From a virus: DNA of 34,867 bases. A program made the position numbers and the translations under genes. Of this stretch, positions 5,396 through 34,503 are shown piece after piece (positions within the stretch are counted from its first letter, which is position 1; every line of letters begins with the position of its first letter). Below the pieces are notes generated by a model. The model saw only the letters and a program-made list of their open reading frames with translations, searched no databases and was not told the origin of the DNA. Where the stretch lies: positions 1 through 34,867 of the IMG/VR virus record IMGVR_UViG_3300007345_000121. One strand, 5' to 3'.

Positions 5396-5417
5396 CGGGT
5401 AACGTGGCTAATTGTTA

Positions 5418-6314
5418 TCAGGCGACGTCGGAGGTGATGTTGGCCAGGCGAGCAGCGGCGCGGCCGTTGATCAGAGCCATTCCGCAGTACCACTCAACGC
5501 GGGTGATCATTTGGGGCTGAGCATGATCCTCACCCAGTTCACGGACGTTCACGCCACCGTTCTGGATGCCGGTCAGGTGATCGTTGCCGAAGGACACGCA
5601 GTAAATGTCCTGAGCAGTGGTGTCGACGTTGCTGGCAGCTTCCAGGATAGGAGCGTTCAGGTTGTCGCGGTCCAGCTCAAGCACGGGCAGGCCCATGTAG
5701 TTGTACTGCTGGTAGCCGTACTCGTTACGGGTGATGTCGATCTGGTTGCTGCCACGAGCCAGGCGGGTCAGTGCGCGACGTGCAGACTTCGACATGACCA
5801 GATACTTGCGGCCGCCTTGTGCGTCCACAGAATCGATCAGCTCATCGAGCATATTCTCGGTGAGGGTAGCGCCACCATTGATGTACTGGCTGGAGCCAGA
5901 AGGAATGCGAGCGGCCAGGCCGTCGAACTCGGAAGGGGACTGGTTGGAATCGCCGTTGATGAACAGAGCTTCCCAAGCGAGGCGCATTGCGCGAACGCGG
6001 GACTGCACCTGATAAGCCTTGGCCTGAGCACCTTCCAGCTCGATGATGGCGCGATCAACCTTGATGTCGCCACCGAAGAGCTTCAGGCTCTCGGACTGTT
6101 GGCTCACTTCGCCGTAGCTCTCGGCCAGTGCGCCGTTGTAGTTACGGAAGCCCACATCGGGCAGGCTCTCTTCACGCTTCCAGAACAGGCCGTTGCCTTC
6201 GATGTTGCGGAAAGGAATAACAGACAGCAGTTGGCCAGCAGCCAGCTCAGTCACCACCGCCAATTCCTGGGGCGTACGAGCGTGCTTCTGGGCTTCCAGC
6301 AGGGTAAGTGCCAT
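5418..6314 (-). CDS. Major capsid protein (HK97 fold)
   Basis: 298 residues. The ATG is preceded by an excellent Shine-Dalgarno sequence (TTAGGAG, 8 nt). The pattern is that of HK97-fold capsid proteins lacking a protease or delta domain: an N-terminal arm and E-loop region (about 40-70, SLPDVGFRNYNG), the spine helix (about 88-120, VDRAIIELEGAQAKAYQVQS), GDSNQSPSEFDGLAARIPSG (about 120-140), and a beta-rich C-terminal A-domain (YMGLPVLELDRDNL). It lies directly downstream of the scaffold gene. It has its own terminator and a 127-nt leader, as expected for the most abundant protein. Identification is by pattern and synteny. Confidence 0.9.
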   Translation of the reverse strand: MALTLLEAQKHARTPQELAVVTELAAGQLLSVIPFRNIEGNGLFWKREESLPDVGFRNYNGALAESYGEVSQQSESLKLFGGDIKVDRAIIELEGAQAKAYQVQSRVRAMRLAWEALFINGDSNQSPSEFDGLAARIPSGSSQYINGGATLTENMLDELIDSVDAQGGRKYLVMSKSARRALTRLARGSNQIDITRNEYGYQQYNYMGLPVLELDRDNLNAPILEAASNVDTTAQDIYCVSFGNDHLTGIQNGGVNVRELGEDHAQPQMITRVEWYCGMALINGRAAARLANITSDVA

Positions 6315-6440
6315 GATGATCTCCTAAAGAAATGAATGAACGAAGATTGGGTGTTAGCGCCTTTGCTATTGTCACAACAGCTTCAGCAGTCGCACCCTTT
6401 CAGTCCACTCTATCTCAGAGTTTCCCTACGGGGCTGCTAT

Positions 6441-6454
6441 TAGTATAATACCTA
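6441..6454 (-). promoter_or_regulatory. Element variant at head of capsid transcript
   Basis: Coding-strand TAGGTATTATACTA, with three extra bases between GG and CTA. It is 127 nt before the capsid ATG and just after the scaffold terminator. It contains TATTAT and TATACT, both good -10 hexamers. Confidence 0.6.
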
Positions 6455-6460
6455 AATATT

Positions 6461-6482
6461 AAAAAAGGGGCCGAAGCCCCTA
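6461..6482 (-). terminator. Rho-independent terminator of the scaffold gene
   Basis: On the minus strand GGGGC-TTCG-GCCCC then six T. The TTCG tetraloop makes it very stable. It lies 7 nt beyond the scaffold stop. Confidence 0.9.
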
Positions 6483-6488
6483 AGTTAC

Positions 6489-7226
6489 TTAACCAAATGC
6501 TCGCTGGAACAATTGCTCTGGCGACAAACTAGTCATATCTTCAATAGTCATGCCGTTGGCGTCGGTACCGCCAAAGCCGATACCTGCCCCCGTACCCTTG
6601 GCTCCTTTGAAGAAGGTTCCAAAGACAGGGTGACGCTTGAAGCTGTTCATATACTCTTCTGGAGTAACGCGAGTGCCAGTTTCCTTATCAAGAACAGGGT
6701 CGCCAGCATGGTCGACAACAGTCAAAGCGCCATCTGGTTCGTGACGGAAAGAAGTACCTACCTGATCTGCCAAGAGATCAAAGAAAGAAACACCGTCTAC
6801 GGAATCAGTACGACCACCGGCGGCATTGAACACTTTTTCCAAAGCGTACTTCTTGCGATAAGCTGCAAGATTGCGCTCGGCGGCTTCTGCCTTACGGATA
6901 GCCTCCTGCGCCTGGCCGGAGTACTTGTTCTCCATTGCATCCCGAACCTCTCCCCATTGAGCCTGCAGGCGAGCGGCTTCAGCTGCCTCCTGCTGTAGCT
7001 TGTGATACTCGTCTGGGTTGATCTCTGCAAACTTCTCAAGCTGGCCCTTGCTTTCCTTAAGTTCCCGCTCGTATTGCTTGCGGGCCTCGCGTTCCGCCTT
7101 GAGGGCTTTAAGAAGGTTCTCCGCCTCAGAGCGAGGCATAAGATCTTCGTTCCCGCCAGCGGCAGGAGTTGCTTCGGCTGCAGGAGCCTTGACTTCCGTC
7201 TCGGGAGCCTTGTTTTCTTCTGACAT
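6489..7226 (-). CDS. Capsid scaffolding protein
   Basis: 245 residues. A disordered Ala/Glu/Pro N-terminus (residues 1-28) is followed by a long charged coiled coil (about 35-125, e.g. SEAENLLKALKAEREARKQY), then a globular region with FFDLLADQVGTSFRHEPDGA and a Gly-rich stretch (about 205-225). The C-terminal helix is MTSLSPEQLFQRAFG. This is the architecture of phage scaffolding proteins, which template procapsid assembly and are then removed. Position immediately before the capsid gene supports this. The start has no Shine-Dalgarno sequence and follows a perfect hairpin. Confidence 0.85.
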   Translation of the reverse strand: MSEENKAPETEVKAPAAEATPAAGGNEDLMPRSEAENLLKALKAEREARKQYERELKESKGQLEKFAEINPDEYHKLQQEAAEAARLQAQWGEVRDAMENKYSGQAQEAIRKAEAAERNLAAYRKKYALEKVFNAAGGRTDSVDGVSFFDLLADQVGTSFRHEPDGALTVVDHAGDPVLDKETGTRVTPEEYMNSFKRHPVFGTFFKGAKGTGAGIGFGGTDANGMTIEDMTSLSPEQLFQRAFG

Positions 7227-31811: not shown

Positions 31812-32231
31812 ATGAGCAACGTAGAGAAAGCACCTCTTCACGAGCGTCCATCCGACTACGTTTACGCCATGACAGCTTTAAATAGTGCGCAAGCTCGTCG
31901 CCAGTGGCGGGCAGGAATTCGTGCAGCGTGGAATGATCGCTGCGCTTATTGCGGTCAGCCACCTATCGACGAAGAGTCCCTTACAATCGATCATGTAAAA
32001 CCTCGCTGCAAAGGAGGAGAGGACCGGACATCCAATGTAATCCCGGCCTGTCGCTCTTGCAATCAAGCCAAGGGTTCAGAAGAATGGGTTTCCTGGTACA
32101 GCCGCCAAGCCTTCTATAGTATCTACGCAGAAGCTCGCATTAGAAAATGGATAGACAAAGGTACTGTCGATAACTACGAAGATACTACAGAAGATTCGGA
32201 ATGGCTTGATCAGGTTATCTCAGGATCCTGA
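31812..32231 (+). CDS. HNH endonuclease with two CxxC zinc motifs (inserted on opposite strand)
   Basis: 139 residues. The HNH core is complete: CAYCGQPP (C44, C47), LTIDHVKPRCKGGEDRTSNV (D60-H61, N75), and PACRSCNQAKGS (C80, C83, K87). It is the only plus-strand gene in the right half of the window, lies between chaperone and tail terminator genes, and overlaps the last 17 nt of the chaperone frame. It lacks the TAGG element. A weak promoter-like GGGCATAAT occurs about 70 nt upstream. Typical of a free-standing homing endonuclease that invaded a spacer. Confidence 0.93.
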   Translation: MSNVEKAPLHERPSDYVYAMTALNSAQARRQWRAGIRAAWNDRCAYCGQPPIDEESLTIDHVKPRCKGGEDRTSNVIPACRSCNQAKGSEEWVSWYSRQAFYSIYAEARIRKWIDKGTVDNYEDTTEDSEWLDQVISGS

Positions 32232-32841
32232 GCTGGAGGCCCTCCTCGGCTACGACCTTGGTATTAACTGGCGGCATCTGAATAAGTACCTCGCCAGAAC
32301 CGTCGGTAGCAGTCATGACGAGCCTCATCTCTGAGGCCTCTTCTTTTGCTATCAACAGGCCTTCTAGCATGCCTTCACCAGCAGTTCTTGGCGCTAGAAT
32401 GATCGCATTTTCATGCATCAGCGCCAAAAGGCTTGGGGGCGTGCTGTTTGCTGTTTTCATCAATCCCTGATAGCAGAACAGCGCCCACGGCGGAAGCTGA
32501 TTGAGTCTGATCAGTTCTGCCATAGCAGCACCAAAACGTCCCTCTGCCATTCCGTCCGAATCCAAACGCTTATAAAGGTAAAAAGCTTCAAGAGGAATCG
32601 GTTTCTTTTGTTTTTTCTGGTCTCTGTTAATATTGGAAAGAGTAGCGGTAAGGAGGGCAACCGGACGCTCGCTTAGATGCAATTCATCCAACTGCATCGT
32701 TTTAGCCTTTCTATAGGCTGTGAAAACATACTCAGAAGGAAGTTCCCAGAAGTTCTCGAGATGAAACTCGGGGTCTCCTGGGAACCATCTTTTCAGAAAC
32801 CAGTATGCTTCCTCAAAATCAAACGAAGCTGCCCTTAGGAC
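32215..32841 (-). CDS. Tail assembly chaperone, -1 frameshift extension (gpG-T like)
   Basis: This frame is open from the slippery site (GTC at 32839-32841) to the stop at 32215, 208 codons. It has no good independent start near its 5' end. The first ATG is at 32697, 48 codons in, with no ribosome site. The sequence begins VLRAASFDFEEAYWFLKRWF and contains NFWELPSEYVFTAYRKAKTM. Joined to the upstream frame through a -1 shift it gives a ~397-residue fusion (189 + 208), the layout of lambda gpG-T, which helps wrap the tape measure before tube assembly. Its 3' end is overlapped by the opposite-strand HNH gene. Confidence 0.8.
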   Translation of the reverse strand, partial: VLRAASFDFEEAYWFLKRWFPGDPEFHLENFWELPSEYVFTAYRKAKTMQLDELHLSERPVALLTATLSNINRDQKKQKKPIPLEAFYLYKRLDSDGMAEGRFGAAMAELIRLNQLPPWALFCYQGLMKTANSTPPSLLALMHENAIILAPRTAGEGMLEGLLIAKEEASEMRLVMTATDGSGEVLIQMPPVNTKVVAEEGLQLRILR

Positions 32842-33407
32842 TTTTTTTCCAGGTCTCCGACCGGATCGTCTTCCCCTGATTTTTCGATAACCTCAATCGC
32901 GTCCTCGTTTTGCTCCCGGAGACGCTCGTCGGAGCGGTTTTCTTCGTCCGTATATAGGTCAGCAAGTGCGTCGATAATATCGGGATGCAAATCAAGAACC
33001 TGATCAAAGTCAATTTTATCGTCTACTCGATAGATTAGCATGCAAAATGCCGTCACCAAGCGGCGACGCTCTTGCGTGGTAATCATTTCAGACATCAAGC
33101 TATCAATTTCTTCCTTGAATTGATCGGCTACTTCTTTACTTTCTTTGCTGAAGCTTCCAGTAATAACTTCCTGGAGAAGTGCATACGCTTTTTCTTGATC
33201 CAGCTTTTTTTCAAGAGCGACCTGACGGACAAGACTCAGCATTTGACGGGTAACGTTGTCAGAGGTCATCTGAGTCTGAAGAAAAGCCTTCTCACCCGCA
33301 CTGAGGTACCCACGACGTTCAATGGAAATATATCCGGCATCCTCGGAGCCTACAAGCTCTCTAATTGGCTTCCGACGCGGCTGGATTACAAAAGGAAGCT
33401 TTGCCAT
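32835..33407 (-). CDS. Tail assembly chaperone (gpG like)
   Basis: 190 residues, helical and acidic. It starts MAKLPFVIQPRRKPIRELVG; the middle is helical (TRQMLSLVRQVALEKKLDQE, and LVTAFCMLIYRVDDKIDFDQ) and the C-terminus is highly charged. It ends four codons after GAA AAA AAG TCC TAA. The A AAA AAG heptamer at its end and the long -1 frame beyond identify it as the short product of a frameshifted chaperone pair. Unlike lambda, it lies upstream of the tail terminator and major tail genes rather than just before the tape measure. It has a perfect element (ATGGTATACTA) 20 nt upstream and a TAAGG ribosome site. Confidence 0.85.
   Translation of the reverse strand: MAKLPFVIQPRRKPIRELVGSEDAGYISIERRGYLSAGEKAFLQTQMTSDNVTRQMLSLVRQVALEKKLDQEKAYALLQEVITGSFSKESKEVADQFKEEIDSLMSEMITTQERRRLVTAFCMLIYRVDDKIDFDQVLDLHPDIIDALADLYTDEENRSDERLREQNEDAIEVIEKSGEDDPVGDLEKKS
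32841..32847 (-). other. Programmed -1 frameshift slippery site A AAA AAG
   Basis: In the zero frame the codons are GAA AAA AAG TCC TAA, so the heptamer A AAA AAG is in the correct register for a -1 slip, two codons before the stop. A Shine-Dalgarno-like GGAG lies about 7 nt upstream (32855-32858), and a possible GCTTC/GAAGC stem lies about 10 nt downstream. Both are known stimulators. Confidence 0.85.
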
Positions 33408-33426
33408 AATAACCTTAAAAGCGAGC

Positions 33427-33437
33427 TAGTATACCAT
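33427..33437 (-). promoter_or_regulatory. TAGGNANNCTA-type element upstream of chaperone gene
   Basis: Coding-strand ATGGTATACTA, core 20 nt before the ATG. It reads TGGTATACT, which also matches an extended -10 promoter. Confidence 0.65.
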
Positions 33438-33976
33438 CACTCACCCTGACCAAGTCGGGACCTAAGATACGCAATAGCTGCCTGCCTTGCTATCTCAGCG
33501 CTTGGCATTGCCTGCAGCGCTTTGGTGACCCATGGTCTACCTGGTAGGTAAACCGGCCTGGCATGCGGGTTGCCGTATGGCTGAATGTAACCGCCTTCGT
33601 GAGTCAAGGCTGCGTACGGAGAACTGTAATTGATGCTAATACTGCCATCAGGCGCAAGGTTAATAGTAAGGGACCTCATTAAGGCGCCAGTTTTAACCGC
33701 TCCTGCCGACCTAATAGAGCTGTCCAGATAAGCTCTAACGGCATCGGCCAAGGCTCGCGCAATGGCCTGCTCCATGCCTCTATGTATAGAATCAAAATCT
33801 GCGTTGACCTGAGTTGGCTCTAGTTCAATCTGAGGAGCGACAGGCAAAGCACCAGGTAGGCCCGTAAACCCGTCAAACTCGACCTCTATCGTATCTTCTT
33901 TTCTGAGTTTAGCATCTACGGATTCGATTTCCCTGAAAAGATCCTCGAAATTATGGGTAACACCAACTTTAGCCAT
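33437..33976 (-). CDS. HK97-gp10-like tail completion protein
   Basis: 179 residues. The C-terminal half has the family pattern VKTGALMRSLTINLAPDGSI then SINYSSPYAALTHEGGYIQP and LPGRPWVTKALQ (about 95-160): a helix ending in the KTGxLxxS turn, a beta hairpin, and the final RPWxxxA segment. Members of this family help complete or join the tail. The start overlaps the stop of the upstream gene (ATG within TGATG-type junction), so both are translated together. Order with the terminator candidate fits head-to-tail connection. Confidence 0.88.
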   Translation of the reverse strand: MAKVGVTHNFEDLFREIESVDAKLRKEDTIEVEFDGFTGLPGALPVAPQIELEPTQVNADFDSIHRGMEQAIARALADAVRAYLDSSIRSAGAVKTGALMRSLTINLAPDGSISINYSSPYAALTHEGGYIQPYGNPHARPVYLPGRPWVTKALQAMPSAEIARQAAIAYLRSRLGQGE

Positions 33977-34482
33977 CAGTTCTGAACCTCGCCGGCGGTC
34001 AGTTGAAGTTGTACGCCACCAATCTCGCTATAAATGATCTCGTCAATACCCTGGCCACCAAAGATACCAGTAGAACGCTGAACCCTGGAAAGACTTTCTC
34101 TTTCGTCACCAAAGAAGAATCGAACCTCCATGTTTGGCATCAAAGCATCTAGTTGTCCCGTTACTGTGCTGAATACAACCAGGCTTTCATCGTCGACGGC
34201 AGGATCCCAATCAGCTGCTACCACGGCGTACTCAAGTGCATAACCACGGTAGTAGAACTGGTCACCACTGGCGCCTGGCATCATTTCACCATCCAGCTGG
34301 CTCTCTAGGGGGATCCTCTTAGAGCCTGATGAGACCCCCGTATATTGGATTCTTTTCATGAAGCAGCGGATAAGGTAGGTATCCCCTGCAGCGGCCACCA
34401 GACGGCCATTGACGACGCTTACAGCGCCTTCTGCGACCGCGATAACCCGAGAGTTGATATAGGGCGCTAGAGGAGAGGCCAT
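33976..34482 (-). CDS. Head completion/connector protein candidate
   Basis: 168 residues, mostly beta with few charged residues (MASPLAPYINSRVIAVAEGA; YLIRCFMKRIQYTGVSSGSK; YYRGYALEYAVVAADWDPAV). The C-terminal region contains RVQRSTGIFGGQGIDEII, sharing RSTGIF with the N-termini of the two decoration-like proteins at 3989-4798. Position immediately before the HK97-gp10-like gene is where head-closure (stopper) proteins lie. It has an element 22 nt upstream of the ATG. Assigned by position and composition. Confidence 0.7.
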   Translation of the reverse strand: MASPLAPYINSRVIAVAEGAVSVVNGRLVAAAGDTYLIRCFMKRIQYTGVSSGSKRIPLESQLDGEMMPGASGDQFYYRGYALEYAVVAADWDPAVDDESLVVFSTVTGQLDALMPNMEVRFFFGDERESLSRVQRSTGIFGGQGIDEIIYSEIGGVQLQLTAGEVQN

Positions 34483-34503
34483 TTACCCAGGTTCATGTCC
34501 TTC

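Follow-up and report, generated by a model that had tools for sequence, protein, structure and literature searches.

A probable -1 frameshifted, lambda-like tail chaperone pair displaced from the tape measure gene in cyanophages

Gene layout around the overlapping frames

The window, that is, the whole stretch of DNA analysed here, is a 34,867-base virus record that carries two overlapping reading frames on its minus strand. The frames, the elements at their junction and the neighbouring genes are as follows.

33976-33437, minus strand: Neck1 / tail completion-like gene, ahead of the pair (phrog_5, E 9.5e-8)
33407-32835, minus strand: zero-frame ORF, the putative gpG-like short tail assembly chaperone (190 aa; ATG at 33407, TAA at 32837-32835)
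32858-32855, minus strand: SD-like GGAG, 7 nt ahead of the heptamer, a possible weak stimulator
32847-32841, minus strand: slippery heptamer A AAA AAG, in the zero-frame register
32846-32215, minus strand: -1 frame part of the predicted fusion (putative T-like domain), which would be translated after the slip
31812-32231, plus strand: HNH endonuclease gene, convergent, with a 17 nt overlap with the 3' end of the -1 frame
31696-31265, minus strand: putative tail terminator gene, its identity inferred from position, without a convincing family match
31203-30589, minus strand: major tail (tube) protein, 204 aa, with a UAG stop (phrog_38654, PF06199)
30588-30334, minus strand: in-frame extension after the UAG of the major tail gene, 85 codons, a candidate readthrough domain (motif at 30592-30573)
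30235-27254, minus strand: tape measure protein (PF20155, E 6.2e-20)

At its 3' end, the zero frame reads CTG GAA AAA AAG TCC TAA. After a slip by one base on the heptamer, 208 open codons follow in the -1 frame before a stop whose last base is 32215, and the predicted fusion is 397 aa long (187 + 210). The earliest ATG in the -1 frame, at 32697, lies about 50 codons in and opens an ORF of 160 codons. These coordinates and translations agree with the initial annotation, which had placed a gpG/gpG-T chaperone pair with an in-register heptamer and products of 190 and about 397 residues at 32215-33407; the span is correct, with both genes encoded on the minus strand. The 208 open -1 codons that it had described were likewise found, and its addition that this frame has no start of its own holds only as far as the ATG at 32697.

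In addition to the heptamer at the junction, a second in-frame A AAA AAG occurs at 33210-33204 (minus strand), at codons 67-68 of the zero-frame gene. This internal site is the sole AAAAAAG in the 14,169 codon positions that precede the overlaps in the collected loci, and is found in the window only, being absent from the other nonredundant relatives. It is probably adventitious. Some slippage would be expected there as well, which counts against the best explanation, and the outcome would be a short dead-end product.

The order Neck1, pair, HNH (antisense), terminator, tail tube and tape measure was found in 41/41 testable nonredundant loci, namely those with enough flanking sequence, of which 39 had all of the genes detected and two had one gene undetected. 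The initial annotation had remarked that the pair lies ahead of the terminator and tail tube genes and does not adjoin the tape measure gene, and this arrangement thus extends to every testable locus. The convergent HNH gene was present in 82/82 nonredundant loci having over 700 b downstream, and this antisense gene looks fixed, not mobile. The pair is separated from the tape measure gene by about 2 kb in the window and by about 18 kb in P-SS2, where the homologues of the pair lie at 34537-35211 and 35232-35765 and the tape measure gene at 54104-59761. In the window, the listed tape measure ORF starts at TTG 30280, and the later ATG start given above is our reading of the sequence. A terminator-like hairpin with a T run (30290-30272, minus strand) was also noticed between the major tail region and the tape measure gene.

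Chaperone frameshift pairs are described in PMC3091744 as sitting between the major tail gene and the tape measure gene. The pair analysed here lies outside that interval, and therefore we do not file it as a member of the lambda G/GT class, but describe it as one that would work like that system.

Conservation of the -1 step and the origin of the long product

Using tblastn, the zero-frame protein matched S-CRES1, S-CRES2, S-CBS2 (two records) and S-CRES3, and the -1 part additionally matched Cyanophage PSS2; scans of IMG/VR provided many further relatives of both halves. The 162 sequences searched included the window and its own copies, and each half was matched in 161 of them. All of the locus records having both halves, 159/159 with the window not counted, showed the -1 relation between them. 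These records include the same contig fetched repeatedly; they contain 108 distinct junctions, which a further reduction brought to 85 nonredundant loci. A sequencing error or a pseudogene was ruled out as the origin of the -1 step, which is common to all 159 records.

The heptamers in the 85 nonredundant loci were AAAAAAG (46), GGGAAAG (33), GGGAAAA (4) and AAAAAAA (1), with none of these in one locus, so that A AAA AAR or G GGA AAR is present in frame within the overlap in 84/85. When the codons of each zero-frame gene were shuffled (500 shuffles), a mean of only 0.76 of the 85 loci had a listed heptamer in the overlap, with a maximum of 5, and a chance A-rich heptamer was ruled out by this comparison (0.76 expected versus 84 observed). 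Upstream of the overlaps, just four listed heptamers occurred in 14,169 codon positions, one of them being the internal site of the window. The remaining locus carries G GAA AAG, a sequence annotated as a -1 frameshifting site in phage LLS, although counting it as a site here would be a post hoc rescue. A search for conservation of A AAA AAG among relatives had been proposed as a check in the initial annotation; that heptamer was found in 46 of the 85 loci, and another listed heptamer in 38.

The identical junction type occurs in the cultured phages S-CBS2, S-CRES1, S-CRES3 and P-SS2, and PSS2, which stands outside the 85 loci, has G GGA AAG. In PSS2 (positions 5402-6630 of the stretch compared), the zero frame extends about 41 codons beyond the G GGA AAG, and in the record the downstream gene is called from a late TTG. 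The full gene order and an A AAA AAG were also seen in a MAG contig labelled Proteobacteria bacterium UBA4457, which is likely to be a phage contig binned with the MAG.

Both A AAA AAG and G GGA AAG are efficient -1 sites, and the re-pairing of lysine tRNA at A AAA AAG has been described (PMC5009743). Regarding stimulators, SD-like tetramers 5-18 nt upstream of the heptamer were present in 40/84 loci, compared with 23.7 +/- 3.9 in codon shuffles, a count reached by 1 of 1000 shuffles; the commonest spacing was 6-7 nt. No stable 3' RNA structure past the slip was found in the window (z -0.29), nor any strong conserved structure across the loci. The minimum of the averaged folding just past the slip was a weak signal, no deeper than at another offset, and a stable 3' structure was dismissed as a stimulator on the basis of the window z value and this matched minimum. 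Rfam and tRNA scans of the window gave no matches.

The initial annotation had set one alternative against the frameshift, namely separate translation of the downstream frame from ATG 32697; the two frames would then be separate genes, with the downstream one translated by coupling. That ATG does begin a 160-codon ORF, and the GenBank records of S-CBS2, S-CRES1 and S-CRES3 give the downstream gene a late start. However, the approximately 50 residues ahead of the ATG are better conserved than those behind it (71% amino-acid identity between the slip and ATG 32697 versus 65% after that ATG), and the differences among relatives in this segment fall mostly at third positions (0.213/0.163/0.492 by codon position). 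The protein-level conservation of the stretch from the slip to this ATG cannot be accounted for by a separate start there. ATG, GTG and TTG are absent from the -1 frame before the slip in 81/84 loci and present in 3/84, and the first possible -1 start after the slip lies a median of 37 codons on (84 loci). Separate genes would furthermore leave the slippery sites unkept, yet 84/85 loci have them. The evidence is thus strongly contrary to two separately translated genes, which we consider extremely improbable. A long product arising from RNA polymerase slippage on the A run, instead of ribosomal frameshifting, would accord with the seven A that precede the G in the window, but 37/85 loci have GGGAAAG or GGGAAAA, without a long A run, and the frame register of the heptamer is maintained throughout; we give this reading hardly any credence. 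Taken together, the conserved frame relation, the interchange of the A AAA AAG and G GGA AAG sites among relatives and the protein-level conservation past the slip support frameshifting, and, as judged from comparative sequence analysis, the long product is almost certainly made by programmed -1 frameshifting of the lambda G/GT type.

A candidate UAG readthrough in the major tail gene

The 85-codon extension that follows the UAG of the major tail gene has counterparts among the relatives. For this comparison 74 loci were parsed, and one misparsed locus was set aside, leaving 73. The major tail gene ends in TAG in 25 of the 73, with 81-187 in-frame codons beyond the stop in 25/25. At the loci ending in TGA or TAA, 45/48 have 36 or fewer in-frame codons after the stop, and the other three have 62, 94 and 122 codons, which are seemingly unrelated. 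In 30 distinct cases, selected as having a TAG followed by 75 or more open codons, the bases after the TAG, CTG A(C/T)T GGA GG, are nearly invariant, third positions included, and 7/30 of the extensions are free of any ATG, GTG or TTG. A scan of the whole of IMG/VR with the exact 20-base pattern TTAGCTGAYTGGAGGNATYG returned 40 stretches, every one of which (40/40) is located where a major tail gene ends and is followed by an in-frame extension of 81-89 codons. In S-CBS2, most of the extension corresponds to gp20, which is labelled 'structural protein' in the record.

The simplest reading of the major tail extension is UAG readthrough, which the major tail gene probably uses. We regard it as reasonably likely that two recodings would operate in the cyanosiphovirus tail operon, an unlinked -1 frameshift in the chaperone pair and, in about one-third of the group, a UAG readthrough driven by a conserved element (U UAG CUG AYU GGA GG) and adding a surface domain of 81-187 residues to some of the tube subunits. 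In the open-access literature, we recognised no report of UAG readthrough in a phage major tail protein, and the readthrough candidate supplies a compact, well-defined element open to testing in cultured S-CBS2.

Role of the pair and comparison with known systems

The predicted structures of the two halves were of high confidence, with AlphaFold2 mean pLDDT values of 90.5 for the zero-frame protein and 93.1 for the -1 part. Foldseek against the PDB gave no match with E up to 0.001 for either model. The best VIA-align matches, an ion channel for the zero-frame protein (Z 6.4, rmsd 2.3, 75 aligned) and a match at Z 3.5 for the -1 part (rmsd 6.5, 65 aligned), were taken as uninformative. A match to YqbN (3klu), which we take to be a member of a chaperone family, had Z 4.0 and an rmsd of 4.8 over 93 aligned residues. 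By sequence, solved structures gave no match to the -1 domain and two unconvincing matches to the zero-frame protein. In BFVD, the sole significant match was F4YCJ6 (42% identity, E 4e-17); rank 4 was the 'pre-tape measure frameshift protein G' of Xylella phage Sano (E 0.11) and ranks 20-22 were three tail assembly chaperones (E 1.8-1.9), none of these being significant.

The family searches gave a similar picture for the -1 part. All 72 members of the -1 family matched phrog_34388, a family of unknown function, and 22 of the 72 had weak matches to Pfam Phage_tail_T (PF06223) at E up to 0.1, the best being 0.0017; when ten members were re-scanned, three matched at 13.2-15.7 bits, below the cut-off of 25.9. 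The zero-frame protein had no consistent match in Pfam, PHROG or NCBIfam. Homology to lambda G and T was sought by profile comparison with hhalign and was not found, with no significant similarity between the -1 domain and a lambda T profile of 8 sequences (probability 1.3) or between the zero-frame protein and a lambda G profile of 6 sequences (probability 0.03). The names gpG and gpG-T therefore apply by analogy only. Since the homology to lambda G/T is not significant, the case for a chaperone role rests on the design of the pair, its neighbours and the virion data.

As to the last of these, Table 2 of PMC2784084 lists virion peptides of P-SS2 from ORFs 061-063 (32988-34499) and 066-068 (36202-42854). 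The homologues of the pair, which by position are ORFs 064 and 065, are missing from that virion table. This fits with assembly factors, although small or scarce proteins can be missed in such a list. In the S-CBS2 record, gp13, 14, 18, 19 and 20 are labelled structural, and gp15 and gp16 hypothetical.

We propose that the two overlapping frames would act as a single gene. Most ribosomes would end at the UAA (32837-32835) and release the 190-residue protein, and a minority would slip back by one base on A AAA AAG (32847-32841), where the lysine tRNA would re-pair with AAA in the -1 frame, to produce the 397-residue fusion. By analogy with lambda gpG/gpGT, the short form may coat the tape measure protein, the extra domain of the long form may recruit tail-tube subunits, and both forms may depart before the virion is completed.

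A frameshift that is real could still serve a different step, for instance at the neck or in head-tail joining, near whose genes the pair sits. The pair does come after the Neck1-like gene and apart from the tape measure gene, and it shows no homology to any known chaperone when curated cut-offs are applied. Against such a role, the short/long -1 design and the heptamers, which include lambda's own, are typical of tail chaperones; there are weak T-family matches (22/72 relatives, best E 0.0017, those re-scanned being below the cut-off); the BFVD ranks include a frameshift protein G and three tail assembly chaperones, though none is significant; and no other frameshift pair was noticed from the tail tube to the tape measure gene in the window. 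We regard a role outside tail chaperoning as unlikely, and a tail chaperone role as quite likely. Of the chaperone pair proposed initially, the frameshift is upheld by the comparison among relatives, and the chaperone role is likely from analogy and context. In this virus, which infects marine cyanobacteria, a single gene very probably gives rise to two helper proteins for tail building through a -1 slip of some ribosomes, and the explanation as a whole, a frameshifted, lambda-like tail chaperone pair displaced from the tape measure gene, is in our judgement quite likely to be correct.

The G/GT frameshift is a textbook case, and the mechanism here is a known one; the pair is a variant of it by its location and by the absence of detectable homology. 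In the open-access literature, we recognised no report of the frameshift in S-CBS2/P-SS2-like phages. A large, mostly marine phage group here retains the frameshift with the pair elsewhere, and this retention despite displacement argues that adjacency is unnecessary for tape measure coating. The finding also suggests a function for two protein families to which none has been assigned, phrog_34388 among them, and the frameshift would explain the late-started downstream genes in the S-CBS2, S-CRES1, S-CRES3 and P-SS2 records.

Among known systems, in E. coli dnaX the shift makes the short product, whereas here the frameshift would yield the long one. The A AAA AAG heptamer is shared with dnaX (PMC5009743), and SD-like sequences lie upstream in 40/84 loci here; the window is without a stable 3' hairpin (z -0.29). 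P2 E/E+E' and other conserved tail pairs follow the same logic of a short product and a -1 extended one, and differ in their location, which is between the major tail gene and the tape measure gene, and in the heptamer TTTTTTG (PMC3091744). From lambda gpG/gpGT, the pair differs in preceding the terminator and tube genes and in having no significant G/T homology. It shares with lambda a short zero-frame protein and a -1 fusion about twice as long as the short form, with the heptamer shortly before the zero-frame stop, and lambda's own site, read with the same code, is GGGAAAG, as in many of the relatives here.
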